From: an uncultured Bacteroidales bacterium
GTDB lineage: Bacteria; Bacteroidota; Bacteroidia; Bacteroidales; FEN-979
Assembly (NCBI GenBank): GCA_903925275.1
Contig: CAIYES010000495.1
Location: 1-44,260 of the forward strand
Length of the DNA stretch: 44,260 nt
Direction: 5' to 3'
Shown one piece after another: positions 7,167 through 38,615 of this stretch (its first letter is position 1; each line of letters starts with the position of its first letter). The notes beneath the pieces are model-generated. The model saw only the letters and a list, made by a program, of their open reading frames with translations. It was not told where the DNA came from and searched no databases. A program made the position numbers and the translations under genes.

Positions 7167-8237
7167 CTATTTTGTTAAAGGTTCCTGCTGGGAGAGGCAG
7201 TGAAATGATCCCAATCCCCAGATGATCTCCACCGAATCGATTCCAATAATACTGCGGTTTGGAAAACACTGTTCAAGAATACGCATAGCCTGATCATCTT
7301 CTTTACAACGGAAATTGGGGACAATCACCGACTCGTTGGCGATGTAAAAATTTGCATAGGAAGCAGGCAGTCGCTGACCTTCAAAAGTCACTGGTTTGGG
7401 CATTGGGATCTCGGCGATATCGAGTTGTTTGCCATTTTGAAGCCTGAAAGTTTTCAGCTGTTTAATATTTTCTTCCAAAATTTTATGATTTTTATCCGAC
7501 CGGCGGGTCTCAACCATGGTTACCACTGCATCTTCCCTGAAAAAACGGGCAAGATCATCGATGTGTCCATTCGTATCATCTCCCTCTATTCCCTCATCCA
7601 GCCATAGTACCTGATTCACCCCATAAAAGTTGTGCAGGTACTCTTCGATCTCATGCTGAAACAATCCCGGGTTGCGGTTTTCGTGCAGCAGGCATTGCAT
7701 TGTTGTAAGCAAGGTTCCTTTTCCATTGAAATCAACGGCACCGCCTTCCATCACGATTCCCGGATAAAATGCAGGAATGTTGAGGTATTTGGCTATCAAT
7801 CCCGGGATTTGATCATCAAGATCGTGGTCGTATTTATTTCCCCAGGCGTTGTATTTCCAACCAACAATTACTTTCGGTTCCGCTGCACATTGCTTAACCA
7901 GGAAAGCCGGACCGTGATCGCGACACCATGCATCGTTGGTAGGATGAATCAACAGGTCGATTTTAGAAAGATCAACATCAATTTTCATCAAATCACGCCT
8001 TACACTTTCCCGAAGAGTTTCATTGCGAACATTGATACAAACCCGTTCTCCTTTCGATAACTCCTTGATAAACTGGTTGTAAAAAGGAAATATCCGTGAC
8101 AGGGTGCCCGGCCACGAGTAAGAATCATCATGCGGGTAACTAAGCCATGTGGAGCGATGTTCAGCCCATTCTGCAGGAAAATAGTAACCAAGTTCTCCGG
8201 GAGTCGGATCCGTAAAATTATTTCTCGATTTTTCCAT
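7167..8237 (-). CDS. aguA: Agmatine deiminase
   Basis: Hydrolyses agmatine to N-carbamoylputrescine and ammonia, the first half of the two-step agmatine-to-putrescine route. It is 356 aa and belongs to the peptidyl-arginine deiminase (PPAD) superfamily. Visible motifs are PAEWAEHRSTWLSYPH near the N-terminus, the acidic/His segments MEGGAVD and GDDTNGHIDDLARF, and the catalytic GLGSFHC with Cys347 close to the C-terminus. The substrate assignment is supported by aguB, the next enzyme in the pathway, immediately upstream. The ATG (8237-8235) lies inside the last unit of an 8-bp tandem array that fills the whole gap to aguB. Arginine decarboxylase is not in the window. Confidence 0.93.
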   Translation of the reverse strand: MEKSRNNFTDPTPGELGYYFPAEWAEHRSTWLSYPHDDSYSWPGTLSRIFPFYNQFIKELSKGERVCINVRNETLRESVRRDLMKIDVDLSKIDLLIHPTNDAWCRDHGPAFLVKQCAAEPKVIVGWKYNAWGNKYDHDLDDQIPGLIAKYLNIPAFYPGIVMEGGAVDFNGKGTLLTTMQCLLHENRNPGLFQHEIEEYLHNFYGVNQVLWLDEGIEGDDTNGHIDDLARFFREDAVVTMVETRRSDKNHKILEENIKQLKTFRLQNGKQLDIAEIPMPKPVTFEGQRLPASYANFYIANESVIVPNFRCKEDDQAMRILEQCFPNRSIIGIDSVEIIWGLGSFHCLSQQEPLTK

Positions 8238-8290
8238 TTCACTATTTCACCATTTCACCATTTCACCATTTCACCATTTCACCATTTCAC
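8235..8290. repeat. 8-bp tandem array (CATTTCAC x7) between aguB and aguA
   Basis: Seven contiguous 8-bp units, one with a single change (TATTTCAC). On the coding (minus) strand the unit is GTGAAATG. The array starts within the aguB TAG stop (8292-8290) and ends within the aguA ATG (8237-8235), so it is the entire intergenic spacer. Because 8 is not a multiple of 3, the ATGs fall in all three frames. The unit is the same GGTGAAAT type found at the edge of the array at 21473. Confidence 0.95.
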
Positions 8291-9162
8291 TATTTATCAA
8301 TGTACCTGTTCAAAATAGGTCCGTAGCTGTCAATTCTCCTGTCACGTAAAAATGGCCAGTGAATGCGGATTTCATCAATTTGCCGAAGGTCCATTTCCTG
8401 AACACGGATCTCTTCCATATCGTGTGATGCCTGAAACAGGATTTCGCCAAATGGATCAGCAATAAAAGAGCCTCCCCAGAAATTCATCTCTCCCTCTGTT
8501 CCTGTTCGGTTTACTGCAACGACAAAAACGCCATTGGCGATGGCATGTCCACGCTGAATGGTTTGCCAGGCTTGGTATTGCTGACTGTTGACCCTTTTAC
8601 CCTGAGATGAGGCCCAGCCAATGGCCGTTGGATAAAAGAGGATCTGTGCACCCGACAGGCTGGTGATCCTGGCTGCCTCAGGATACCATTGATCCCAGCA
8701 GATCAGCGTACCAATGCGTGCAAATTTCGTTTTGAAAACCTTATAGCCACCATCTCCCGGTGCAAAATAAAACTTTTCATAAAATCCCGGGTCATCGGGA
8801 ATATGGTGTTTTCGGTAAGTGCCAAGCAACGAACCGTCAGCATCGATCACGGCAACGGTATTGTGATAAACCCCTTCAGCGCGTTTTTCAAACAACGAAG
8901 CGATAATCACCACATCCAGTTCTAGGGCAATATCCCGGAAAAGATCAGTTGCAGTACCTGGAATGGTATCGGCCAGTGAAAAATTATCGTAGTTCTCTTC
9001 CCAGCAAAAGTAAGTTGTTGAGAACAGTTCCTGCAAACAAATGATTTGTGCTCCCTGGCTGGCAGCTTCACGGATTTTTTTTGCAGCTTTTTCCAGGTTG
9101 CCCATTTTATCGGGGCCGCAGGTCATTTGAATGATGCCAGCCCTGACTGAATTTGAACTCAT
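8290..9162 (-). CDS. aguB: N-carbamoylputrescine amidase
   Basis: Carbon-nitrogen hydrolase (nitrilase superfamily), 290 aa. It hydrolyses N-carbamoylputrescine to putrescine, CO2 and ammonia. The Glu-Lys-Cys triad is clear: Glu45 in CLQELFSTTYF, Lys118 in YRKHHIPDD and Cys155 in LICWDQWYPEAAR. The CWEENYDNF segment and the C-terminal DRRIDSYGPI are typical of AguB. Length is normal and the ATG at 9162 is the only sensible start. It is transcribed with aguA (downstream) and probably with the T9SS cargo gene 27 bases upstream. Its TAG stop is formed by the first unit of the 8-bp array. Confidence 0.95.
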   Translation of the reverse strand: MSSNSVRAGIIQMTCGPDKMGNLEKAAKKIREAASQGAQIICLQELFSTTYFCWEENYDNFSLADTIPGTATDLFRDIALELDVVIIASLFEKRAEGVYHNTVAVIDADGSLLGTYRKHHIPDDPGFYEKFYFAPGDGGYKVFKTKFARIGTLICWDQWYPEAARITSLSGAQILFYPTAIGWASSQGKRVNSQQYQAWQTIQRGHAIANGVFVVAVNRTGTEGEMNFWGGSFIADPFGEILFQASHDMEEIRVQEMDLRQIDEIRIHWPFLRDRRIDSYGPILNRYIDK

Positions 9163-12368: not shown

Positions 12369-12830
12369 CTACATGATCCTCATCAGGTTCACCATCTCGA
12401 TGGCTGCCAGTGCTGCATCAAACCCTTTGTTGCCGCCTTTTGTGCCGGCGCGTTCGATAGCCTGTTCCAGGTTGTCGGTGGTTAAAACACCAAAAATTAT
12501 AGGTAGTCCTGTTTCAAGGCCCACCTGTGCCACACCCTTGGAAACTTCAGCAGCAACATAATCGAAATGTGGTGTAGCCCCGCGGATTACAGCGCCTAAG
12601 CATATCACTGCATCATATTTTTTTCCGGAAGCCATCTTCTTGGCCAACAGCGGGATCTCGAATGCCCCGGGAGACCAGGTCACATCTATATTTTCGTCAT
12701 CAGCACCATGGCGCCTGAGCCCGTCAAGGCAGCCTGTTAAGAGTTTTCCACTGATAAATTCATTGAACCGGGCAATTACAATTCCGAATTTCAGCCCTTT
12801 GGCGTCAAGTTTTCCTTCGAATGATTTCAT
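12369..12830 (-). CDS. ribH: 6,7-dimethyl-8-ribityllumazine synthase
   Basis: Condenses 5-amino-6-ribitylaminouracil with 3,4-dihydroxy-2-butanone 4-phosphate, the penultimate step of riboflavin synthesis. The protein is 153 aa, normal for the family. Landmarks are [10 protein letters not shown] near the N-terminus, [12 protein letters not shown] in the middle and the active-site segment [23 protein letters not shown], followed by [11 protein letters not shown]. It is the last gene of the rib operon, separated from ribBA by a 12-unit 7-bp array, and it ends facing the convergent OmpA-domain gene. Confidence 0.97.
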
Positions 12831-12862: not shown

Positions 12863-12946
12863 ACAAATGACAAGTGACAAGTGACAAGTGACAAATGACA
12901 AGTGACAAGTGACAAGTGACAAATTACAAATTACAAATTACAAATG
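12863..12946. repeat. 7-bp tandem array (ACAAGTG x12) between ribBA and ribH
   Basis: Twelve contiguous heptamers: seven ACAAGTG/ACAAATG-type units interrupted by one ACAAATG, then three ACAAATT and a final ACAAATG. Variation is confined to the last three positions. On the rib coding strand it reads CACTTGT/AATTTGT. It occupies most of the ribBA-ribH gap. Confidence 0.95.
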
Positions 12947-12982: not shown

Positions 12983-14209
12983 TCAATCCTTTGTCCCATC
13001 GTCTGTAAACGTCAGCCAATGGCCAAGCTTCTCCTTTTTGGTTTTCAAATAGCGGATATTGCGTGAGTTGGAGGTAGTTTGGATTGGGATGCGTTCGATA
13101 AGTTCAAGTCCGAATCCTTCGATCCCGGATATTTTCTGGGGATTGTTCGTAAGCAGTCGCAATTTTTTGATGCCCAGATCAACCAGGATTTCAGCACCTG
13201 TGCCATAATCCCGCAGGTCGGCATCGAAACCCAGCGCATTGTTAGCTTCGACAGTATCCATGCCTTTATCCTGCAAAGAATAGGCCCTCATTTTATTGTC
13301 CAACCCGATGCCCCGGCCTTCCTGACGCATGTAAAGCAATACCCCGCGCCCCTCCCTGGCAATTTTCTTCATGGCATAATCGAGCTGGTCACCGCAGTCA
13401 CAACGCATCGAACCGAATACATCACCGGTTAGGCACTCCGAATGTACACGCACCATAACTGGCTGACCATCGGTGATGTCACCTTTTACCAATGCCAGGT
13501 GATTCTCTTTGCTGATTTTACTGACATAGCTGTAGGCTTTAAATTCGCCGTATTTCGTAGGCATATCAACAACAGCAGCACGTTCGACCAATGTTTCTGA
13601 TTTCCGTCGGTAGTCGATCAGCGAGACAATCGTTATGATCTTCAGATTGTGTTTTCTGACATATTCCATCAACTCCGGTACACGGGCCATGGAGCCGTCT
13701 TCGTTCATAATTTCGCAGATCACTCCGGCTGGATATAACCCGGCCATTTTGGCAAGATCGACCGATGCTTCCGTATGACCCGCCCTGATCAGGACTCCAC
13801 CTTCTTTGTACTCGATTGGAAATATGTGGCCTGGCCTTGTGAAATCCCTGGCCTTGGTCTGGTTGTCGATTACCCGTTTGATGGTCAGCGACCGTTCATG
13901 CGCCGAGATACCGGTTGAACATTCAATAGCATCGATGGATACAGTGAAAGCAGTACGGTTTGGATCGGTGTTTTTTACCACCATGCGCTCAATATTCAAT
14001 TCTTCAAGGCGATCTCGGATGATGGGAAGGCAAATCAATCCCCCGCCATATTTTGCCATGAAATTGATGATGGAAGGAGTCACTTTTTCGGCCGCAATTA
14101 CCAAATCCCCTTCATTTTCACGGTCTTCGTCATCGACCACGACAACCATTTTACCTTTTCGTATGTCTTCAAGCGCCTCTTCGACAGAGTTGAATTTATA
14201 GTTGGTCAT
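12983..14209 (-). CDS. ribBA: Bifunctional DHBP synthase / GTP cyclohydrolase II
   Basis: Supplies both precursors of riboflavin. The N-terminal half (about 1-200) makes 3,4-dihydroxy-2-butanone 4-phosphate from ribulose 5-phosphate, and the C-terminal half (about 205-400) opens GTP. The protein is 408 aa. DHBP synthase signature: DDEDRENEGDLVIAAE, with RAGHTEASVDLA later. GTP cyclohydrolase II signature: VHSECLTGDVFGSMRCDCG (zinc cysteines), then RQEGRGIGLDNKMRAY and TNNPQKI. Both halves look intact. The ATG overlaps the ribE stop as ATGA (14209-14206), so the two are probably translationally coupled. Confidence 0.97.
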   Translation of the reverse strand: MTNYKFNSVEEALEDIRKGKMVVVVDDEDRENEGDLVIAAEKVTPSIINFMAKYGGGLICLPIIRDRLEELNIERMVVKNTDPNRTAFTVSIDAIECSTGISAHERSLTIKRVIDNQTKARDFTRPGHIFPIEYKEGGVLIRAGHTEASVDLAKMAGLYPAGVICEIMNEDGSMARVPELMEYVRKHNLKIITIVSLIDYRRKSETLVERAAVVDMPTKYGEFKAYSYVSKISKENHLALVKGDITDGQPVMVRVHSECLTGDVFGSMRCDCGDQLDYAMKKIAREGRGVLLYMRQEGRGIGLDNKMRAYSLQDKGMDTVEANNALGFDADLRDYGTGAEILVDLGIKKLRLLTNNPQKISGIEGFGLELIERIPIQTTSNSRNIRYLKTKKEKLGHWLTFTDDGTKD

Positions 14210-14847
14210 AAAAAATTATTTTTTGCAAGAAAGTCCATGTCAATTGTTGATTTATTACTTCCGGGGAAATTTAGTTTTTCAATGTATTTTGCCATGATAT
14301 CGCACTCAATGTTGAGTACTTCTCCCGATTTTTTATCCATCAGGCTGGTAACATCCTTTGTATGCGGGATTATTGAAACGCGGAAAGAATATAAATCCAC
14401 AGAAGCCACCGTAAGGCTGATACCATCTAGGGCTACAGAGCCTTTTTCAACAATATACCTGAGCAGCTTCGCATCTGCCAGAATATTGAACCAAACGGCA
14501 TTTTCTTCCTCCCATCTGCGGTCAATTTTCCCAGTGCCGTCAATGTGTCCGCTAACAATATGTCCGCCAAGACGATCCATCAGACGCAATGCCCGCTCAA
14601 GGTTTACCGTGCTGCCAATTTTCAGTGCACTGAGGTTTGTACGGCGAATGGTCTCCGGCATGACATCCAGGGTAAAGTGGTCATTCCCGAACGAGGTTAC
14701 CGTGAGGCAAACACCATTGGTATTGATGCTATCGCCCACTTTCATATCCTCCGGTACCTTCTTGGCCATCACGGTGATATACGACGACCCTGTACCGAGT
14801 TTAACAGTTTTAACAATCCCGATTTCTTCAATAATTCCTGTAAACAT
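14206..14847 (-). CDS. ribE: Riboflavin synthase, alpha subunit
   Basis: Dismutates two 6,7-dimethyl-8-ribityllumazine molecules to riboflavin and 5-amino-6-ribitylaminouracil. It is 213 aa from the ATG at 14847, giving the canonical N-terminus MFTGIIEEIG; a TTG four codons earlier is less likely. Two lumazine-binding repeats are visible: residues about 1-95 (VGDSINTNGVCLTV) and about 98-195 (GHIVSGHIDGTGKI, then VALDGISLTVAS). It sits between ribD, across a 7/8/9-bp composite array, and ribBA, with an ATGA overlap. This gene is also called ribC in some organisms. Confidence 0.96.
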   Translation of the reverse strand: MFTGIIEEIGIVKTVKLGTGSSYITVMAKKVPEDMKVGDSINTNGVCLTVTSFGNDHFTLDVMPETIRRTNLSALKIGSTVNLERALRLMDRLGGHIVSGHIDGTGKIDRRWEEENAVWFNILADAKLLRYIVEKGSVALDGISLTVASVDLYSFRVSIIPHTKDVTSLMDKKSGEVLNIECDIMAKYIEKLNFPGSNKSTIDMDFLAKNNFL

Positions 14848-14895: not shown

Positions 14896-14951
14896 GGCAA
14901 TAGGCAGTAGGCAATAGGCAGTAGGCAGTAGGCAGTAGGCAATAGGCAATA
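14896..14951. repeat. Composite array A, 7-bp part (GGCAGTA/GGCAATA x8)
   Basis: Eight contiguous heptamers GGCAATA or GGCAGTA, differing at one position. They are directly followed, without a gap, by the 8-bp part of the same composite, in the ribD-ribE gap. The rib coding strand reads TACTGCC/TATTGCC. Confidence 0.95.
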
Positions 14952-14991
14952 GCACATAAGCACATAATCACATTATCACATTATCACATTT
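14952..14991. repeat. Composite array A, 8-bp part (GCACATAA/TCACATTA x5)
   Basis: Five contiguous octamers: GCACATAA twice, TCACATTA twice, TCACATTT once. They abut the 7-bp part at 14951 and the 9-bp part at 14992. The octamer is the unit of the array at 38576. Confidence 0.9.
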
Positions 14992-15063
14992 CTTTATTGT
15001 CTGCATTGCTTGCATTGCCTGCATTGCCTGCATTGCCTGCATTGTTTTCATTGCTTGCATTGT
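14992..15063. repeat. Composite array A, 9-bp part (CTGCATTGC x8)
   Basis: Eight contiguous nonamers with consensus CTGCATTGC; the outermost units are degenerate (CTTTATTGT, TTTCATTGC, TTGCATTGT). The array ends two bases from the ribD TAG stop (15068-15066). On the coding strand every full unit contains AATGCA. Confidence 0.93.
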
Positions 15064-15065
15064 CA

Positions 15066-16154
15066 CTAAATCCAGGCCTCCACCATAATGTCGTCACCCA
15101 TTTTCGTAGTTCTCATATTTCTAAGATTCAATGAATCTTCCATTTTTTCTATACCCTTTCCGCCCACGGCGGTCGGGGCATTTGTTCCTCCAAGTATCTT
15201 TGGGGCAATAAAACTGATCACTTTGTCAACGATTCCTTCCTGCAAAGCTGAAAATGCAAGGGTACTCCCGCCTTCGATCATAACACTGTCGATATCCATG
15301 GTGCCGAGTAAACGCATTAATGAACAAAGGTCTACCTTGCCGTTTTTTACCGGACAAACCAACACCTGACACCCCATCCGCTCAAGGGTTTTCAGTTTCT
15401 CTTTTGCGGTAAGATCTGTTGTGGCAATGATGGTGAGTTGCGGATCATTTTTTAAAACATTGGCATCAATCGGAATGCGTCCATGTGTGTCGGCGATGAT
15501 TTTCAGCGGATTTTTCCAATTACCCTTCAGCCTGATATTCAGCAGCGGATCATCAAACAGCACAGTGTCAACACCAATCATCACGGCACTCAGTTGATGA
15601 CGCAAACGATGTACCATCCGGCGTGAGGTTTCGCCGGTAATCCAGCGTGAAGCATTGGTTACAGTTGCGATTTTTCCATCAAGCGTCATAGCCGACTTTA
15701 TAACAACGTATGGCAGCCGGGTACGGATAAATTTGTTGAAAATATCATTCATCCGGACGATCTGTTCCTCCATCATGCCCGATTCGACGATTATTCCCTG
15801 TGATTTCAGGTAATCAATTCCCTTACCGTTGACGAGTGGATTGGGATCGGTCATTCCGACAACCACCCGTGAAATTTTATTTGCTGCTATCAGGTTGGCG
15901 CATGGTGGCGTTTTCCCTTCATGGGCGCAAGGCTCAAGAGTAACATACATCGTTGATCCCGCAACAGGCTCTTTGGCCGCATTGATGGCATTAACTTCTG
16001 CATGAGGACCTCCGAAATATTTATGAAACCCTTCCCCAATTATACGACCCTCCTTAACAATCACAGCCCCAACAACGGGATTCGGATTCACCCATCCAGC
16101 CCCCCGCTTCGCCAGGCTCATCGCCCTCTTCATGTATTTCAGGTCTTCAGTCAT
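15066..16154 (-). CDS. ribD: Bifunctional pyrimidine deaminase/reductase
   Basis: Catalyses the deamination and side-chain reduction after GTP ring opening in riboflavin synthesis. It is 362 aa from the ATG at 16154; an in-frame GTG five codons upstream is less likely. The N-terminal deaminase (about 1-145) has NPNPVVGAVIV, the zinc-site HAEVNAI and PCAHEGKTPPC. The C-terminal reductase (about 145-362) has SAMTLDGKIAT, SRWITG and the NADPH-binding VMIEGGSTLAFSAL. It is the first gene of the rib operon. A composite 7/8/9-bp array, a terminator and an FMN riboswitch lie upstream, so expression should fall when FMN is abundant. Confidence 0.97.
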   Translation of the reverse strand: MTEDLKYMKRAMSLAKRGAGWVNPNPVVGAVIVKEGRIIGEGFHKYFGGPHAEVNAINAAKEPVAGSTMYVTLEPCAHEGKTPPCANLIAANKISRVVVGMTDPNPLVNGKGIDYLKSQGIIVESGMMEEQIVRMNDIFNKFIRTRLPYVVIKSAMTLDGKIATVTNASRWITGETSRRMVHRLRHQLSAVMIGVDTVLFDDPLLNIRLKGNWKNPLKIIADTHGRIPIDANVLKNDPQLTIIATTDLTAKEKLKTLERMGCQVLVCPVKNGKVDLCSLMRLLGTMDIDSVMIEGGSTLAFSALQEGIVDKVISFIAPKILGGTNAPTAVGGKGIEKMEDSLNLRNMRTTKMGDDIMVEAWI

Positions 16155-16188
16155 TCTTGAATAAGTCACAGGTCATAGTTCTGGGATA

Positions 16189-16223
16189 GGCAGTAGGCGA
16201 TAGGCAGTAGGCAATAGGCAGTA
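16189..16223. repeat. Composite array B, 7-bp part (GGCAGTA x5)
   Basis: Five contiguous heptamers, mostly GGCAGTA with GGCGATA and GGCAATA variants, preceded by a half unit (GGGATA). This is the same unit as at 14896, now upstream of ribD. Confidence 0.92.
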
Positions 16224-16279
16224 GCACATTATCACATTATCACATCAGCAAATTATCACATCAGCACATCATCATATTC
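16224..16279. repeat. Composite array B, 8-bp part (GCACATTA/TCACATCA x7)
   Basis: Seven contiguous octamers with consensus (G/T)CACAT(T/C)A; the fourth (GCAAATTA) and the last (TCATATTC) are degenerate. They abut the 7-mer block at 16223 and the 9-mer block at 16280. Confidence 0.88.
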
Positions 16280-16324
16280 CTGCATTATTTTCATTCTCTG
16301 CATTATCTGCATTGTTTGCATTAT
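16280..16324. repeat. Composite array B, 9-bp part (CTGCATTAT x5)
   Basis: Five contiguous nonamers: CTGCATTAT, TTTCATTCT, CTGCATTAT, CTGCATTGT, TTGCATTAT. The last base touches the T-run of the riboswitch terminator, so on the transcript the array begins exactly where the terminator ends. Confidence 0.88.
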
Positions 16325-16359: not shown

Positions 16360-16398
16360 AATCCTATTTAACGTGATAAACCGGTCAGATTAAATATG

Positions 16399-16543
16399 AT
16401 TCTTCTTTCATCCAGACTTTACTGTCGGTGCCGTAATTTCAACGGCTCATTTCCCTTAAAATCCATCATCAGTTGATCATAAATTTTATCGGGAGTCGCG
16501 GACTTTACCGCCGGTCGGGGATTTCACCCTGCCCTGAAGAACC
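16399..16543 (-). ncRNA. FMN riboswitch (RFN element)
   Basis: On the minus strand the conserved RFN blocks occur in order: TTCTTCAGGGCAGGGTGAAA, then CCCGACCGGCGGTAAAGTCC, a variable arm, GCACCGACAGTAAAGTCTGG and the closing ATGAAAGAAGAA. The closing GAAGAA pairs with the opening TTCTTC to form P1. The aptamer binds flavin mononucleotide and lies upstream of ribD-ribE-ribBA-ribH with a terminator between, so FMN should promote termination and shut the operon down. Length (about 145 bases) is normal. Confidence 0.95.
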
Positions 16544-16584
16544 TACTATATTTTATTAATGTTCAGCTTCAATGGTTGTGTTGG

Positions 16585-21472: not shown

Positions 21473-21592
21473 GGTGAAATGGTGAGATGGTGAACGGGTG
21501 AACGGGTGAACGGGTGAACGGGTAAACGGGTAAACGGGTGAACGGGTGAGCGGGTGAGCAGGTGAGCGGGTGAACGGGTGAGCGGGTGATTC
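21473..21592. repeat. 8-bp tandem array (GGTGAACG x15) upstream of the VOC-hydF pair
   Basis: Fifteen contiguous octamers GGT(G/A)A(A/G)CG. The first two are GGTGAAAT and GGTGAGAT, linking it to the aguBA array; the last is GGTGATTC. It lies 62 bases upstream of the VOC ATG, in the divergent region before the hybrid kinase. On the VOC coding strand the unit reads CGTTCACC, the same unit and orientation as the array at 36725. Confidence 0.95.
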
Positions 21593-21653: not shown

Positions 21654-21781
21654 CTGTTGTTTCGACAGGAATTGGCTTAAAATGACCCGCAAAATTTTTT
21701 ATTGGGGTGAATCCTCGCGTTTTTGGAGAGGGATTCAGGGCTGGGTTTTTAGAAAAACAAAACGCCGACAATCATTTCAAC

Positions 21782-24700
21782 ATGGGAAAAGATAACAAAT
21801 CACGGTATTTAGCCCTTCGCCAAAAGGCAGAGAAGTTGCTGAAAATGGATCAGGACAACCCGTCTCCTAATCCATCGGTCAGCCAATCGGCAGGGGAAAT
21901 GCTGGAACTCATTCATGAGCTTGACGTGTACCAAATAGAATTGGATATGCAGAACGAAGAGCTTTTACTTGCCCTGTCGTCAGCTCATGATGCTTCTAAA
22001 AAATATGCTGATTTATACAATTTTGCACCAGTTGGCTATTTTACTCTTTCCAGAGAAGGTGAAATCGTTGAGCTGAACTTCAACGGATCGGTTATGATTG
22101 GCAAAGAACGCTCGCTTTTAAAATACCATCTTTTCGGCGTCTATGTTTCCGACGATACAAAACCGATTTTCAACCTCTTTCTGGCGAATGTATTTGACAG
22201 TAAAACCAGCGTTTCGTGTGAAGTAACCCTTTCAACCATAGACAACCTGTCAATAGATGTTCAACTTACCGGCATCATGGCCGGAAATGGAGAACAATGC
22301 CTTGTAACCATGGTTGACATCACTGAACGCAAACTTGCCAATGATGAGCTGCGTGAAAGCAAAGAAGTCCTCAGCGCAATCATTGAAACAGCGCAAGATT
22401 CGATTTTTGTCAAAGATGCTTCGCTTCAATATCTCATGGTGAACAGGGCCATGGAATCCCTTTTCGGAATGGCGAAAGAGGATATGATCGGAAAATCGGA
22501 CGCATTTCTCTTTGGCGCTGAAAATGCCGGTCATATTGAAGAAATTGACCGGCAGGTGCTGTCTGGGATACCTGTTGAGGAGTTTCCAACAAAACCGGTG
22601 AATGGTGAGATGAAATATTTTCACACCATAAAAGTTCCGCTTAAGGATGCTCACGGACAGATAAAGGGACTTTGTGGAATTGCCAGAGATATTACACTAC
22701 TCAAGCAGGCCGATGAACAGCTTCGGAAGAGTGAAGAAAAATACCGCAATATTTTTGAAAGTGTACAGGATGTCTACTATGAGTCATCTCTTGATGGAAC
22801 GCTCGTGGAAATCAGTCCCTCAATTGAAATTATCTCAAAAGGACAATTAACCCGTAACGAGCTGATTGGAAAATCATTTGTCGGGTTTTATGCGAATCCT
22901 GAAGATCGGAATACCTTCTTTACTGAAATGTTTAAAAAAGGAAGCGTAACCGATTATGAATTGTCGTTTCTAAACAAAGACGGTTCAATCGTACCTGTTG
23001 CCATTTCATCGGCTCTTTTTTATGATGCTGACGGAAAGCCGACAAAAATAACCGGAAGCATGCGCGACATCAGCGAGCGCAAACGGGTGGAAGAAGAGCT
23101 GCGTAAAAGCGAGTCACTCTATCGCGCAATCCTCCAGGCCTCCCCCGACGATATCACGCTTTCGGACATGGAGGGGAATATAAAAATGTTTTCTCTGTCA
23201 GGATTGAAAATTTTTGGCTACGAAAAGGAGGAAGATGTTCTGGGCCTTAAGCTGTCCGATTTTGTTTTTCCCGGGGATCATGAACGCATGTTCGCAGAAA
23301 TTGCAAACATGATCGAGCATAATGTTGCGCACCGGGGCGAATTTCGCGGGATACGTGCCGACAGATCACTGTTCGATTTTGAAGTGACCAATAATTTTAT
23401 CAGAGATGAAAACGGGCGCCCGACTATGTTAGTCTCCATCCTGCGCGACATCACCGACCGTAAAGTGGCCGGGGAAGAGTTGAAAAAACTATTGCAAGCT
23501 GTAGAACAAAGCCCTGTAATGATTTCAATAACCGATCTCATGGGAGCCATTGAATATGCGAACCCAAAAACCCTGGAATTGACCGGTTATACAAAGGAAG
23601 AATTGATTGGACAAAATCCGCGCATCTTCAATTCAGGCGAAAAATCGAAAGAAGCGTATGAAATCCTGTGGAACAACATATCCTCCGGAAAAGAATGGAA
23701 AGGCGAGTTTCATAACAAAAAGAAAAACGGAGAGCTCTACTGGACGTTGACATCGATATCGCCGGTGATGGATCCGGATGGAAAGATAGCGCATTACCTT
23801 GCTGTTCAGGAAGATATTACAGAGCGAAAAATGATGGAAGAAAACCTGCGAAGTTCGGAAGACAGGTATCGTTCTATTTTTCAGGGTAGCTCCGATGGAA
23901 TTATGATTGCCGATGATGAAACTAAAATGATACAGTATGCGAATCCGGCCCAATGCCAGATGTTTGGATATACTGAAGCGGAACTCAGAACGATGCACAT
24001 CAGCGGGATCCATCCGGTTGATACTTTTCCGGACACGCTTATTGAGTTTGAAAAGCATACACAGCAGGAGAATGACTTTTCTGAAAATGTTCAATGTGTC
24101 AGAAAAAACGGGGAGATTTTCTACACAGATATCAATTCAAAAATCACTTTCCTGAACGGCAGAAGAAGCATCATAGGTTTTTTCAAGGATATTACCCGGC
24201 GCAAAAAGGCAGAAGATGAATTACACACACTGAATGCAAACCTTGGGCATATTATTATTGAAAGAACTGCACAATTAGCCGAAACAAATGATCAGCTTCA
24301 AAAAGAAAATGAAGAGCGCAAACATGCCGAGGAAGAGCTGAAACAATTATCTGCACGTTTAACGTTGGCTGCGCATGCCGGTGGTGTGGGAGTGTGGGAT
24401 TTCGATATCGTCAACAACATCCTTGTGTGGGACGATCAGATGTTTGCGCTTTACGGCATCAAAAAAGCGGATTTTAGCGGCGCGTATGATGCCTGGCAGG
24501 CAGGCCTGCATCCCGACGACAAGGTGAAAGGCGACGATGAAATCCAGATGGCGATTCGCGGCGAAAAAGATTTCGATACGGAGTTTCGGGTGGTATGGCC
24601 TGACGGCACAATCCGCAATATCAGGGCTATGGCCATCGTGCAGCACGACGATTCAGGAAAACCTTTCCACCTGATTGGCACCAACTGGGATATCACTGAC

Positions 24701-26875
24701 CAGAAGCAGGCGACAACTTTACTGGATCAAACCCGCCAGAATTATGAAACCTTTTTTAATACAATCGATGATTTTTTGTTTGTCCTCGACGAACAGGGAA
24801 ACATCATTCATACAAATAACACGGTACTGGACAGGCTTGGGTATTTACCCGGTGAACTTATGGATACTTCAGTTCTATTGGTTCATCCTGCCGAACGAAG
24901 AGCAGAAGCAGGACGCATTGTGGGCGAAATGCTGGCAGGTACGGCCGATTTTTGTCCCGTACCGCTTGTTACAAAATCCGGTGACCAGATATCCGTTGAA
25001 ACAAGAGTAAGGCATGGTATCTGGGATGGCAAGGGTGTTATTTTCGGCGTAAGTAAAGATGTGTCAAAAATCAAACTGTCAGAAGAAAAATTTTCCAAAG
25101 CGTTTCAGTCAAATGCTGCACTGATGGCAATCTCCACCATTGAAGGCAGGTTTATAGATGTTAACGAAACATTCTGCAAAACCTTAGGCTATAAGTATGA
25201 AGAAATAATTGGTAAAACTTCCCAGGAACTAAAATTTTTTAATGATCCGTTATTACGAACCACCATTACGGAAAAAGTAAATCAGAATATTGAAGTCAGG
25301 GAAGTTGAAGTGGTGGTAAGAACAAAATCCGGTGTTCCGATTATCGGGTTATTTTCTGCCGATCCTATATACATTGGTGCAGATAAGTGTTTATTAACGA
25401 TGCTGGTTGATATAACACAACGCAAAATGGTGGAAGAAGAACTCAGGAAAGCAAAAATCGAAGCAGAAAAAGCAAATCTTGCCAAGAGTGAATTCATTTC
25501 GCGCATGAGCCACGAACTCCGTACCCCCATGAATTCGATACTTGGCTTTGCCCAATTGATGGATATGGGCGAACTTATTCCATCTCACAGGAAAGGTGTG
25601 AAACACATTTTAAACAGTGGAAAGCATTTGCTCAAACTGATTAATGAAGTGCTCGACATCTCGGGCATCGAGGCCGGTAAGCTAACCGTCTCTCCCGAAC
25701 CTGTGCAGTTAAATAACATTATCGGAGAAATGACGGATACGATTCAACCGCTAGCCAATGCACGGAATATAACATTCGAACTTATAGATTCGCCTGCCAA
25801 CAACATTTTCGTATTTGCCGACCGTACGCGTTTACGACAAGTATTGATTAATCTGTTTAACAACGCTGTTAAGTACAACCGTGAAGGTGGTTCTGTAATC
25901 ATAAAAACCGAATTACGGCAACCGGAAGCGCCGGGTTGTTCCTTTTCCAGGATTTCAATAACCGATAACGGTATTGGAATTTCTGCCGATGACATTCCAA
26001 AGCTTTTCATGCCCTTCGAACGGATCGGAGCCGAAAAAGGCGACACTGAAGGCAACGGGCTTGGACTGGCTGTTGTTAAAAAACTGATAGACAAAATGGG
26101 TGGGGAAATTGGTGTGGAAAGCATCCCTGGCGAAGGAAGCACGTTTTGGATTGAACTGCCGGTAGCCGAAGATCAGATAAGCGGGAAAGAGAAAAAAAAT
26201 GACACTGAAAAACTGACTGCAGCATTGATCATGGCAAAAAAAGAGGTTGCCTTTCAAAACGAGGAGAAAGCAAAACGGGCAGCAGAATTGATCATAGCCA
26301 ATAAAGAACTTGTCTATCAACAAGAAGAGAAAGCAAAACGGGCAGCAGAGCTGATCATTGCCAATAAAGAACTTGCTTATCAACAAGAAGAGAAAGAAAA
26401 ACGGGCAGCAGAGTTAATTATTCTAAAACAAGAGTTAGCCGTTTACGATGGAGATACTTTAGAAACAAGTATACCGGTAATTCGAACAACCGGAACCATT
26501 ATCTACATCGAAGACAATGTTCCGAATGCTGAACTCGTTGAAGGAATAATCGGGACTTATCGCCCGGCAATCCGCCTGATTACATTCCCGTTTGGAAAAC
26601 TTGCTGTTCAGTTTGCAAACGAGTACATGCCTGATTTGATATTGCTCGATCTCGATTTGCCCGACCTGCCCGGCATCGAAGTATTGGCAAACCTGCAGGC
26701 AGACGCTAACCTGAAGCCGATCCCGGTTGTGATCATTTCCGCTGATGCCACGCCGCACCAGATTGAGAAGTTACTGACTGCAGGCGCCACTAATTATCTG
26801 ACAAAGCCACTCGACATCACATCGTTTTTACAGATGGTGGATGAGTGGATAGGAGCAGGGGGACACACTAAATAG
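21782..26875 (+). CDS. Nine-PAS hybrid sensor histidine kinase with C-terminal receiver
   Basis: Soluble hybrid kinase, 1697 aa from the ATG at 21782 (an upstream GTG at 21707 adds 25 unlikely residues). There is no signal peptide or membrane helix, so it senses cytoplasmic signals. I count nine PAS/PAC modules beginning near residues 74, 194, 320, 446, 571, 695, 859, 988 and 1103; most end in DITERK-like motifs. Then come HisKA (phospho-His1244 in SHELRTPMN), HATPase_c (N box FNNAVKYN, DNGIGI, GNGLGLAVVKKL), a coiled-coil linker of three 21-residue repeats (1494-1556) and a receiver (Asp1623, Lys1675). No heme- or flavin-specific PAS residue could be assigned. The next gene is a likely partner. 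Confidence 0.95.
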   Translation: MGKDNKSRYLALRQKAEKLLKMDQDNPSPNPSVSQSAGEMLELIHELDVYQIELDMQNEELLLALSSAHDASKKYADLYNFAPVGYFTLSREGEIVELNFNGSVMIGKERSLLKYHLFGVYVSDDTKPIFNLFLANVFDSKTSVSCEVTLSTIDNLSIDVQLTGIMAGNGEQCLVTMVDITERKLANDELRESKEVLSAIIETAQDSIFVKDASLQYLMVNRAMESLFGMAKEDMIGKSDAFLFGAENAGHIEEIDRQVLSGIPVEEFPTKPVNGEMKYFHTIKVPLKDAHGQIKGLCGIARDITLLKQADEQLRKSEEKYRNIFESVQDVYYESSLDGTLVEISPSIEIISKGQLTRNELIGKSFVGFYANPEDRNTFFTEMFKKGSVTDYELSFLNKDGSIVPVAISSALFYDADGKPTKITGSMRDISERKRVEEELRKSESLYRAILQASPDDITLSDMEGNIKMFSLSGLKIFGYEKEEDVLGLKLSDFVFPGDHERMFAEIANMIEHNVAHRGEFRGIRADRSLFDFEVTNNFIRDENGRPTMLVSILRDITDRKVAGEELKKLLQAVEQSPVMISITDLMGAIEYANPKTLELTGYTKEELIGQNPRIFNSGEKSKEAYEILWNNISSGKEWKGEFHNKKKNGELYWTLTSISPVMDPDGKIAHYLAVQEDITERKMMEENLRSSEDRYRSIFQGSSDGIMIADDETKMIQYANPAQCQMFGYTEAELRTMHISGIHPVDTFPDTLIEFEKHTQQENDFSENVQCVRKNGEIFYTDINSKITFLNGRRSIIGFFKDITRRKKAEDELHTLNANLGHIIIERTAQLAETNDQLQKENEERKHAEEELKQLSARLTLAAHAGGVGVWDFDIVNNILVWDDQMFALYGIKKADFSGAYDAWQAGLHPDDKVKGDDEIQMAIRGEKDFDTEFRVVWPDGTIRNIRAMAIVQHDDSGKPFHLIGTNWDITDQKQATTLLDQTRQNYETFFNTIDDFLFVLDEQGNIIHTNNTVLDRLGYLPGELMDTSVLLVHPAERRAEAGRIVGEMLAGTADFCPVPLVTKSGDQISVETRVRHGIWDGKGVIFGVSKDVSKIKLSEEKFSKAFQSNAALMAISTIEGRFIDVNETFCKTLGYKYEEIIGKTSQELKFFNDPLLRTTITEKVNQNIEVREVEVVVRTKSGVPIIGLFSADPIYIGADKCLLTMLVDITQRKMVEEELRKAKIEAEKANLAKSEFISRMSHELRTPMNSILGFAQLMDMGELIPSHRKGVKHILNSGKHLLKLINEVLDISGIEAGKLTVSPEPVQLNNIIGEMTDTIQPLANARNITFELIDSPANNIFVFADRTRLRQVLINLFNNAVKYNREGGSVIIKTELRQPEAPGCSFSRISITDNGIGISADDIPKLFMPFERIGAEKGDTEGNGLGLAVVKKLIDKMGGEIGVESIPGEGSTFWIELPVAEDQISGKEKKNDTEKLTAALIMAKKEVAFQNEEKAKRAAELIIANKELVYQQEEKAKRAAELIIANKELAYQQEEKEKRAAELIILKQELAVYDGDTLETSIPVIRTTGTIIYIEDNVPNAELVEGIIGTYRPAIRLITFPFGKLAVQFANEYMPDLILLDLDLPDLPGIEVLANLQADANLKPIPVVIISADATPHQIEKLLTAGATNYLTKPLDITSFLQMVDEWIGAGGHTK
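26261..26449 (+). repeat. 63-bp in-frame direct repeats (x3) in the kinase linker
   Basis: Three consecutive 63-bp units begin at 26261, 26324 and 26387 and encode 21-residue repeats of the type EEKAKRAAELIIANKEL plus a YQQ-like end. A degenerate copy precedes them (KKEVAFQN). They form a charged coiled coil between HATPase and receiver. Twenty-one residues is three heptads, so gain or loss of a unit keeps the coil register. Confidence 0.9.
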
Positions 26876-36697: not shown

Positions 36698-36724
36698 TAA
36701 ATGAAAACCATCAACATGCTAACC

Positions 36725-36876
36725 CGCTCACCCGTTTACCCATTCACCTGTTTACCCGTTTACCTGTTTACCCGCTTACCTGTTCACCTGTTTACCTGTT
36801 TACCCGTTTACCCGTTTACCCATTCACCCATTTACCCGTTTACCCGTTTACCCGTTTACCCGTTTACCCGTTCACC
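36725..36876. repeat. 8-bp tandem array (CGTTTACC x19) in the leader of the cytochrome c lipoprotein gene
   Basis: Nineteen contiguous octamers with consensus (C/T)(G/A)(T/C)T(T/C)ACC; CGTTTACC is commonest, with TGTTTACC, CGTTCACC and CATTCACC variants. It is the reverse complement of the unit at 21473 (GGTGAACG). It fills most of the gap between the DsbD_2-like gene and the cytochrome. All three plus-strand frames are open through it, producing spurious ORFs rich in RLPVYPFT. Confidence 0.96.
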
Positions 36877-36908
36877 CAATGAATTACACAACTAAAACCC
36901 CAACTTCC

Positions 36909-37739: not shown

Positions 37740-38573
37740 TTACCAACTCCCTCCGGCGCCCCCTCCGCCAAAGCTTCCACCGCCAAAGCCACCAAAACTG
37801 CCTCCGCCACCACCGCCAAATCCGCCGCCACCGCCGCTGAAATCGTTCCACGAACCACTACGGCCGCGTCCCATTGAGCCCAATAACCCGAGGGCCGCCC
37901 AGAAAGGTAAGCTTTTTCCTACCGACATGCCACGGCCACCACTACCCCGGATGAGGGTAAAGACGACTATAAGAATGATCAGGGGGATAAGCAGCCCGTA
38001 CGGACTTGATTTATTACCTTTTCGTTTTGCATACTGTTCGGCAGTATACTCCCCTTTAGCAAGCGAAATCATGGTTGTAACCGCAGCATTTATTCCGGTG
38101 TAATAGTTGCCTTGCTGGAAATTCGGGACCATCTCGTTGGTGACGATCCGTTTTGCTAAGGCATCAGGAATTACCCCTTCAAGTCCGTATCCTGTCTGGA
38201 TACTGGCTTCTCCTTTTTCATTGGGGTATTTTGGTTTGACAAGGACGACAGCTCCGTTATTTTTACCTTTTTGACCCACCCCCCATTTTTCTCCGATCAG
38301 CCGGGCAAATTCATTTTCATCTAACCCGTTTAATGATTTAACAATAACCACAACGATTTGAGTGGAGGATGAATCATTGAACATTAATAGTTTCTGTTCC
38401 AGATTCTGCACCTCATCGGCGCTCAGAATTCCGGCAAAATCATTGACTAACCGCGGTGGGTCAGGTCGTGCCGGGATATCCTGCCCGTAAACAGGCGAAA
38501 ATCCAAAAAAGATTAACATCCAAAAAAAAGAAAAAATAAACCCCCTGTAACCTCTCATAATTTTTTTTCTCAT
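37740..38573 (-). CDS. TPM-domain membrane protein (YgcG-like), Gly-rich C-terminus
   Basis: A 277-aa protein from the ATG at 38573 (a GTG two codons earlier is possible). A signal peptide ends near SPVYGQ. The TPM domain (about 35-180) has VNDFAGILSADEVQNLEQKL, a stretch of SSTQIVVVIV, and GYGLEGVIPD. One membrane helix (about 212-230) is followed by a Gly/Ser/Phe-rich tail ending GGGGAGGSW. The family is linked to membrane-protein maintenance and photosystem repair in plants; the bacterial role is unclear. It is the third gene of a lemA-TPM-TPM cluster. Its start codon is supplied by the edge of an 8-bp array. Confidence 0.88.
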   Translation of the reverse strand: MRKKIMRGYRGFIFSFFWMLIFFGFSPVYGQDIPARPDPPRLVNDFAGILSADEVQNLEQKLLMFNDSSSTQIVVVIVKSLNGLDENEFARLIGEKWGVGQKGKNNGAVVLVKPKYPNEKGEASIQTGYGLEGVIPDALAKRIVTNEMVPNFQQGNYYTGINAAVTTMISLAKGEYTAEQYAKRKGNKSSPYGLLIPLIILIVVFTLIRGSGGRGMSVGKSLPFWAALGLLGSMGRGRSGSWNDFSGGGGGFGGGGGGSFGGFGGGSFGGGGAGGSW

Positions 38574-38575
38574 TA

Positions 38576-38615
38576 GCACATTAGCACATTAGCACATTAG
38601 CACATCAGCACATCA
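38576..38615. repeat. 8-bp tandem array (GCACATTA x5) between the two TPM genes
   Basis: Three GCACATTA and two GCACATCA units are contiguous, with a degenerate sixth unit (TCTCATTA, 38568-38575) that carries the ATG of the downstream gene. The array starts two bases after the upstream TAG (38619-38617). On the coding strand the unit reads TAATGTGC, so each copy holds a stop-start overlap. It is the same octamer as in the rib composites. Confidence 0.93.

Follow-up and report, generated by a model that had tools for sequence, protein, structure and literature searches.

Ordered composite blocks of short tandem repeats in the gene gaps of an uncultured Bacteroidales bacterium

Cyanobacterial STRR heptanucleotide repeats are intergenic heptamer tandem arrays, and they resemble the arrays described here in that respect. 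REP/BIME elements and RAYT offer another comparison: these are dispersed intergenic elements, some with opposed arms, whereas our arrays have no palindromic unit and a Y1 transposase is absent in four array-carrying genomes of the same genus (hereafter, congeners).

The closest described repeats are heptamers. According to the available text of MacGregor 2015 (PMC4679880), TAACTGA direct repeats are intergenic, lie near gene boundaries, are patchily distributed among species and also occur in five Bacteroidetes, and roles in translation or rearrangement have been proposed for them. The same text reports that Gramella forsetii and A. sublithincola also have other heptamer direct repeats between their genes, and that larger heptamer-repeat assemblages occur in two nearly identical intergenic regions in Elizabethkingia; blocks of mixed repeats therefore have a precedent. 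In that account a single unit was tracked, found in the main genome mostly just upstream of starts, whereas the arrays reported here comprise many 7-, 8- and 9-bp units in ordered blocks with a G-to-C polarity and edges at stops. They do not belong to the TAACTGA repeats, as the units differ and the array edges in our own sample favour stops over starts. The heptamers GGGAATC and GGGGAYT of Xanthomonas and Nostoc are G-rich and intergenic, lie on average 28 nt from the next 5' neighbouring ORF, vary in length and sequence between close relatives and include some inverted pairs (available text of Rehm 2015, PMC4692102). They form one unit family with GGG runs and are G-quadruplex-capable, whereas the heptamer GGCARTA of this study has only GG.

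PMC4679880 also describes the long simple sequence repeats (LSSR) of Mrazek 2007, which have units of up to 11 bp, with heptamers the commonest in most genomes and slippage proposed as the process. Our arrays share two features with them, short-unit tandem copies beyond chance and copy numbers that vary between relatives; composite order and polarity are not part of the LSSR description in the available text of PMC4679880. In Planctomycetota, intergenic tandem repeats have been linked to deletions (available text of PMC9426551). The available text of open-licence papers described no polar ordered composites and no fixed 7-8-9 order or G-to-C direction, and exact unit strings matched only mammalian-cell papers there. 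The author of an earlier note on this DNA knew of no described element with stepwise increasing unit lengths; a close class is known, namely intergenic heptamers and other 5–11 bp repeats (PMC4679880, PMC4692102, in the text available). Short repeats between genes are commonly regarded as slippage products of one unit, whereas those described here form ordered, polar and copyable blocks.

Two repeat blocks in the rib operon

The window is the 44,260-nt stretch of DNA analysed here, contig 495 of a 5.65-Mb draft genome in 574 contigs. Base-by-base reading revealed two blocks, block 1 (14896-15063) and block 2 (16189-16324), in both of which a 7-bp array is followed by an 8-bp and then a 9-bp array with zero spacers. 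The units are GGCARTA (7), KCACATTA-like (8) and CTGCATTGC-like (9) in both blocks, and the copy numbers are 8-5-8 in block 1 and 5-7-5 in block 2 (heptamer-octamer-nonamer). All six arrays were also called by TRF, and the earlier note's account of abutting arrays with identical order and these copy numbers proved exact. The features of the operon are as follows (array families A–D are defined in the next section).

12369 to 12830, minus strand: ribH, lumazine synthase (NCBIfam TIGR00114, 1.3e-55)
12863 to 12946, minus strand: third rib-operon array, family D, in the ribBA-ribH gap; ACAAATG/ACAAGTG heptamers on the plus strand (TRF)
12983 to 14209, minus strand: ribBA (NCBIfam NF006803, 2.7e-191)
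14206 to 14844, minus strand: ribE, riboflavin synthase (NCBIfam TIGR00187, 8.5e-67)
14896 to 14951, plus strand: block 1 heptamer array A, eight GGCARTA units (base reading and TRF)
14952 to 14991, plus strand: block 1 octamer array B, five units, GCACATAA, TCACATTA and TCACATTT (base reading and TRF)
14992 to 15063, plus strand: block 1 nonamer array C, eight YTGCATTGY-like units (base reading and TRF)
15066 to 16154, minus strand: ribD, start codon putative (NCBIfam TIGR00326, 1.1e-109)
16189 to 16223, plus strand: block 2 heptamer array A, five units (base reading and TRF)
16224 to 16279, plus strand: block 2 octamer array B, seven units (base reading and TRF)
16280 to 16324, plus strand: block 2 nonamer array C, five units (base reading and TRF)
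16396 to 16545, minus strand: FMN riboswitch aptamer (RF00050, 108.1 bits)

Since the rib genes lie on the minus strand, the order in the mRNA is nonamers, octamers, heptamers. Block 1, in whose nonamer array units one and seven are degenerate, ends on its right 2 nt short of the stop codon of ribD (15066-15068). The left edge of block 2 lies 34 nt upstream of the ribD ATG (first base 16154), or 19 nt if ribD starts at the GTG at 16169, and its nonamers adjoin, by eye, the T-run (in gene sense) of a terminator-like hairpin between the riboswitch aptamer and ribD.

Across the window, TRF returned 12 rows with a period of 6–10 and a score of at least 50, corresponding to 11 distinct arrays (one doubly listed), and 0 such rows in each of 10 first-order Markov simulations; tandem copies of short units (5–11 bp class) exceed chance. 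Further octamer arrays, with the units CCATTTCA, GGTGAACG/GGTGAGCG, ACCCGTTT and CATTAGCA, were called by TRF at 8234-8295, 21473-21589, 36722-36877 and 38571-38613. At 26219-26412 an in-frame 63-bp repeat (21 residues) lies within a large ORF (21707-26875) that we take to resemble a PAS/histidine kinase; this repeat is coding and differs from the intergenic arrays.

Order and copying of blocks across the genome

The heptamer pattern matched the genome 149 + 87 times with at most 2 mismatches and the nonamer pattern 352 + 321 times with at most 3, and both reversed-pattern controls gave 0 matches. Around many, not all, of these matches 51 stretches were taken (contained ones dropped; 371,537 bases including the window; hereafter, own sample), a set chosen for arrays, with additional array loci existing outside it. 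Of the 110 array groups in it, 28 combine two or more arrays. A consensus-distance rule gave seven named families, i.e., A (GGCARTA), B (CACATTAT/CACATCAG), C (TTGCATTGC), D (TCATTTG), E (TTAAGTG), F (CACCATTT) and G (CACCCGTT), and genes were called as longest ORFs. Every genome used in this study is a draft assembly in which copy numbers may be collapsed, and several contigs end within arrays.

The earlier note had proposed a genome scan to see whether such arrays combine in random orders; in the own sample, groups with family A do not. This family was leftmost and in plus orientation in 17/17 multi-family groups having it, and family C lay to the right of A, also in plus orientation, in 13/13 groups having both. 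The combinations were A-C (n = 7), A-C-C (n = 1), A-B (n = 3), A-B-C (n = 3), A-D (n = 1) and A-E-C (n = 2), and one additional group had A arrays only, in opposite orientations. The stepwise 7-8-9 lengths, put forward earlier as the defining feature, were found in 3 of the 110 groups (both window blocks and one on contig 31). GGCARTA in this genome also heads 7-9, 7-8, 7-7 and 7-7-9 blocks, with partners of 7, 8 or 9 bp that are mostly others in congeners; the length progression is no rule and is incidental. In a flank test of the own sample, another array lay within 150 bp to the right of A in 20/30 clusters and to the left in 1/30, where 4 of the clusters partnerless on the right stop at a contig end and 3 of the 30 represent one contig 104 site. 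On contig 393 (L053, L074), two A-B blocks lie one on each side of a gene that presumably encodes a gas-vesicle GvpN-type ATPase.

The clearest sign of copying came from contigs 233 and 562, which have 136 bp in common, ungapped and at 95.6% identity, consisting of part of an E array, a largely non-repetitive linker and a C array. The neighbouring ORFs differ, and the compared 4.3-kb stretches held no other significant match outside arrays. This one clear case shows that blocks can be copied without their flanks. Of the 78 linker pairs compared, 4 scored above every one of 300 shuffles (about 0.3 expected), an excess that may come partly from the repeats themselves; 3 of these 4 were among octamer-bearing blocks, and only the 233/562 pair has a long common linker. 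A similar pattern was seen between G011 and G006, two congeners that are 96% identical: one G011 gap has a multi-array block where G006 has a short array, and that block matches other G011 and G006 loci at 75–85%. Among the alignments viewed, five (L170-L173, L179) keep collinearity across several arrays and, in part, across linkers.

The two window blocks have identical order and units in adjacent gaps, and their middle segments align above all 300 shuffles, as would be expected if block 2 derived from block 1 by one local duplication. Yet both score higher with other contigs than with one another: among the sampled stretches, block 1 scored 179.5 with contig 507, 174 with contig 10 and 129 with block 2, and block 2 was best with contig 31 (148.5). 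A genome search likewise put block 1 nearer other loci than block 2. The flanks also differ, a stop codon versus a terminator-like hairpin, and no flanking-DNA homology was found between the two window blocks. On these alignment scores we rejected the origin of either block by local duplication of its neighbour, which is very unlikely. The two blocks are thus not mutual copies as had been supposed, each aligning better with another locus, and the alternative of a single segmental duplication including flanking DNA fares no better, as homology stops before the flanks and many loci exist beyond the two.

We consider it likely, with a probability of about 60%, that the blocks belong to a family of composite short tandem repeat arrays dispersed over the gene gaps of this genus, made by slippage, copied between arrays and under little sequence constraint. 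Slippage would expand and contract the 7–9 bp units, as the copy-number differences and unit variants suggest. Ordered blocks would then be copied into other gaps, leaving the flanking genes behind, for which the 95.6% pair is one instance and the collinear G011/G006 blocks are an indication. The route would probably be ectopic gene conversion or recombination with the arrays themselves as homology, the copying being read from its products. Copying of this kind would preserve order, so that GGCARTA remains leftmost and TTGCATTGC rightmost.

Blocks copied without flanks to sites with unrelated neighbours (contigs 233 and 562), and the 49 of 106 stop-facing array edges that lie within -5 to 10 nt of the stop, could also reflect a mobile composite element, REP/BIME-like or other, inserted at gene ends by a dedicated enzyme. 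This we regard as improbable, given that the partners of A are exchangeable, that no target duplication stood out by eye in the G006/G011 gaps and that the candidate enzyme is patchy. Y1_Tnp had one match in the own genome and matches in 14/19 genomes of the genus, and four of the 5/19 without a match (G005, G008, G011, G012) carry arrays; Y1-transposase dispersal is not needed in these four. The window blocks had no clean empty site. Of the earlier suggestion of a mobile or copied composite, the copied part was borne out by the fixed order over many loci, block copying without flanks and copy-number variation, but a mobile element was not, with no defined ends and no Y1 match in the four array-carrying congeners.

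A hairpin element, with pairing between a G-rich left arm and a C-rich right one of the kind found in terminators or REP, was considered because GGCAAT is complementary to ATTGCC in the nonamer. On the A-plus strand, the folding z is -2.3 to -4.2 for 5/7 A-C blocks, and 2/3 inverted C blocks reach -5.9 and -3.5. Against this, z on the rib mRNA strand was +0.6 and +0.5, the blocks' own arms pair worse than swapped arms (mean -27.5 versus -34.8), and in three sets array gaps showed no more structure than gaps free of arrays. We rejected a hairpin function for the rib mRNA and generally on these three comparisons, and find it hardly credible.

Turnover among relatives

Inspection by eye of 15 congeners showed clear arrays in the riboswitch-ribD gap of about 10 and in the ribD-ribE gap of about 10; most consist of other units, and some of the 15 have no arrays in the rib gaps. 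Exceptions are G005, with the nonamer family, and G012, with the heptamer in the riboswitch-ribD gap. In G013 (L100), the ribD-ribE gap has GGCTAAAGCC-type intergenic repeats instead of an array. Because the arrays differ or are absent in relatives, sequence-specific work for riboflavin synthesis or the riboswitch is improbable, and on this comparison of sequences neither the riboswitch nor riboflavin regulation is likely to include the arrays as a conserved component. A role of the array as part of the riboswitch mechanism is unlikely, as the terminator-ribD stretch varies in length and sequence among congeners.

The genomes G006 and G011 align over 10.4 kb at 96.3% identity. Of six segments with low identity, the four internal ones are array gaps, both ribD gaps among them. 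Units that differ between 96%-identical genomes mark gene boundaries as a fast-evolving compartment in these uncultured Bacteroidales, and such array gaps fit the contig ends that fall inside arrays. Between G006 (L194:11405-17885) and G011 (L197:11769-18408), blocks that are 92–98% identical occur in a different order; several joins of this rearrangement are in array gaps and one is a deletion within an ORF. Arrays may drive local rearrangement, or these contigs may be misassembled.

Counting the own genome, 10 of the 19 genomes in the genus have heptamer A in three units. Its matches number 199 in the own genome, 111 in G008, 23 in G012 and at most 11 in each of the others; the reversed control gave 0 except in G009 (10) and G008 (1). 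Among 393 genomes drawn from the order, four-unit A was found in 10, with 82 matches in G105, and its reversed control in two (G171 and G227). Four-unit C was found in 1/393, the own genome, in a draw that held no other genome of the genus; C-like arrays are present in G005 and G009.

The neighbours of A change with the genome. In congeners, another array lay to its right in 22/28 cases and to its left in 5/28, and the many different right partners include TCGTAAA, GTCACTC, TCGCTACC and ATCCCCAA, with nonamer C once. Outside the genus (14 loci in 9 genomes of the order, by eye), GGCARTA arrays are mixed, some with a right partner and some without, and in G399 and G154 G-rich arrays lie to their left. 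By eye, G105, of another family, has two GGCAATA arrays followed by a AACTTTATA-type nonamer and one followed by octamers. This genome (L208, L210 and L211) has many GGCAATA arrays (35 + 47 four-unit matches) with right-hand octamers and nonamers of its own; the arrays reflect either convergence or transfer. A scan restricted to the A-then-C order detected it in one gap of CAIYQH010000316.1, an uncultured Bacteroidales MAG, between ORFs that we take to be rng and trpS.

Base polarity and distance to gene edges

Gaps were cut in thirds and their GC skew compared, with a cut-off of 25 bp for arrays. Co-directional gaps with arrays had a gradient in both sets: in the own sample (n = 55, p = 0.0007) the skew fell from +0.15 to -0.12, and in the 15 congeners (n = 31, p = 0.00096), whose stretches were picked by ribD and not by arrays, it fell from +0.17 to -0.17. 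Array-free co-directional gaps had no gradient in either set (own n = 64, p = 0.4; congeners n = 40, p = 0.52), and plain base composition of gene boundaries was rejected as the source of polarity in co-directional gaps on this ground. The same gradient was found in co-directional array gaps of G006 (n = 21, p = 0.007; array-free p = 0.68) and G011 (n = 28, p = 0.0003; array-free p = 0.12), in stretches picked for array matches and with overlapping contents. These polarity tests are not independent, the congener stretches being largely one orthologous region and G006 and G011 overlapping. As reverse complementation preserves G on the left and C on the right, the sense strand tends to be G-rich after a stop and C-rich before a start.

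Other gap types gave a mixed picture. Convergent array gaps of congeners agreed with the gradient (n = 16, p = 0.0016), and no significant gradient was detected in the own sample's convergent (n = 11, p = 0.83) and divergent (n = 7) array gaps or in array gaps of five genomes from other genera of the family (co-directional n = 9, p = 0.3; convergent n = 4, p = 0.62). Array-free divergent gaps do have a gradient (own p = 0.033, genus p = 0.0045, family p = 0.023), and array-free convergent gaps of congeners had a mean purine gradient from +0.22 to -0.19 with p = 0.62 for GC skew. The seven array-bearing co-directional gaps of the window alone showed no gradient (p = 0.84). Taken array by array, the correlation was modest (rho of -0.34 in the own sample and of -0.30 in relatives); in the minus-minus context it was weak, at -0.20 and -0.04.

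Slippage and copying alone leave this polarity unexplained. Because unrelated units show it too, and the units themselves change freely, the polarity must come from selection or from a biased process. One candidate is functional punctuation, the G-rich to C-rich gradient being selected as an RNA or DNA boundary signal that is read by composition and not by unit, possible examples being a G-poor leader before starts or a composition signal of Rho or S1 type. The gradient in array-bearing co-directional gaps of the own, congener, G006 and G011 sets, whose units differ, and in the convergent array gaps of congeners, together with its absence from array-free co-directional gaps, is consistent with such a signal. 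We nevertheless consider it unlikely: most congener boundaries do without arrays (51/131 gaps have arrays of at least 25 bp and 80/131 fall below the cut), array length and units differ between 96%-identical genomes, and the samples overlap as stated. The non-significant own convergent, own divergent and other-genera array gaps and the gradient in array-free divergent gaps point the same way. A genus-wide form of punctuation is a rather long shot; here, at gene boundaries that bear arrays, the strand leading out of a gene would be made G-rich by whatever units the species has, either because a Rho/S1-like machine selects for it or because strand-biased repeat-building extends from gene edges.

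The constraints observed on the family are that many arrays end at a stop codon, that they lie a median of about 25 nt before a start, and that they run from G-rich to C-rich in co-directional gaps. In the own sample, the median distance from array edge to stop was 5 nt (n = 106) and to start 25.5 nt (n = 86), and for all array types taken together the edges within -5 to 10 nt numbered 15/86 at starts and 49/106 at stops. In congeners, the array edge was a median of 9 nt from the stop (n = 91) and 23 nt from the start (n = 59).
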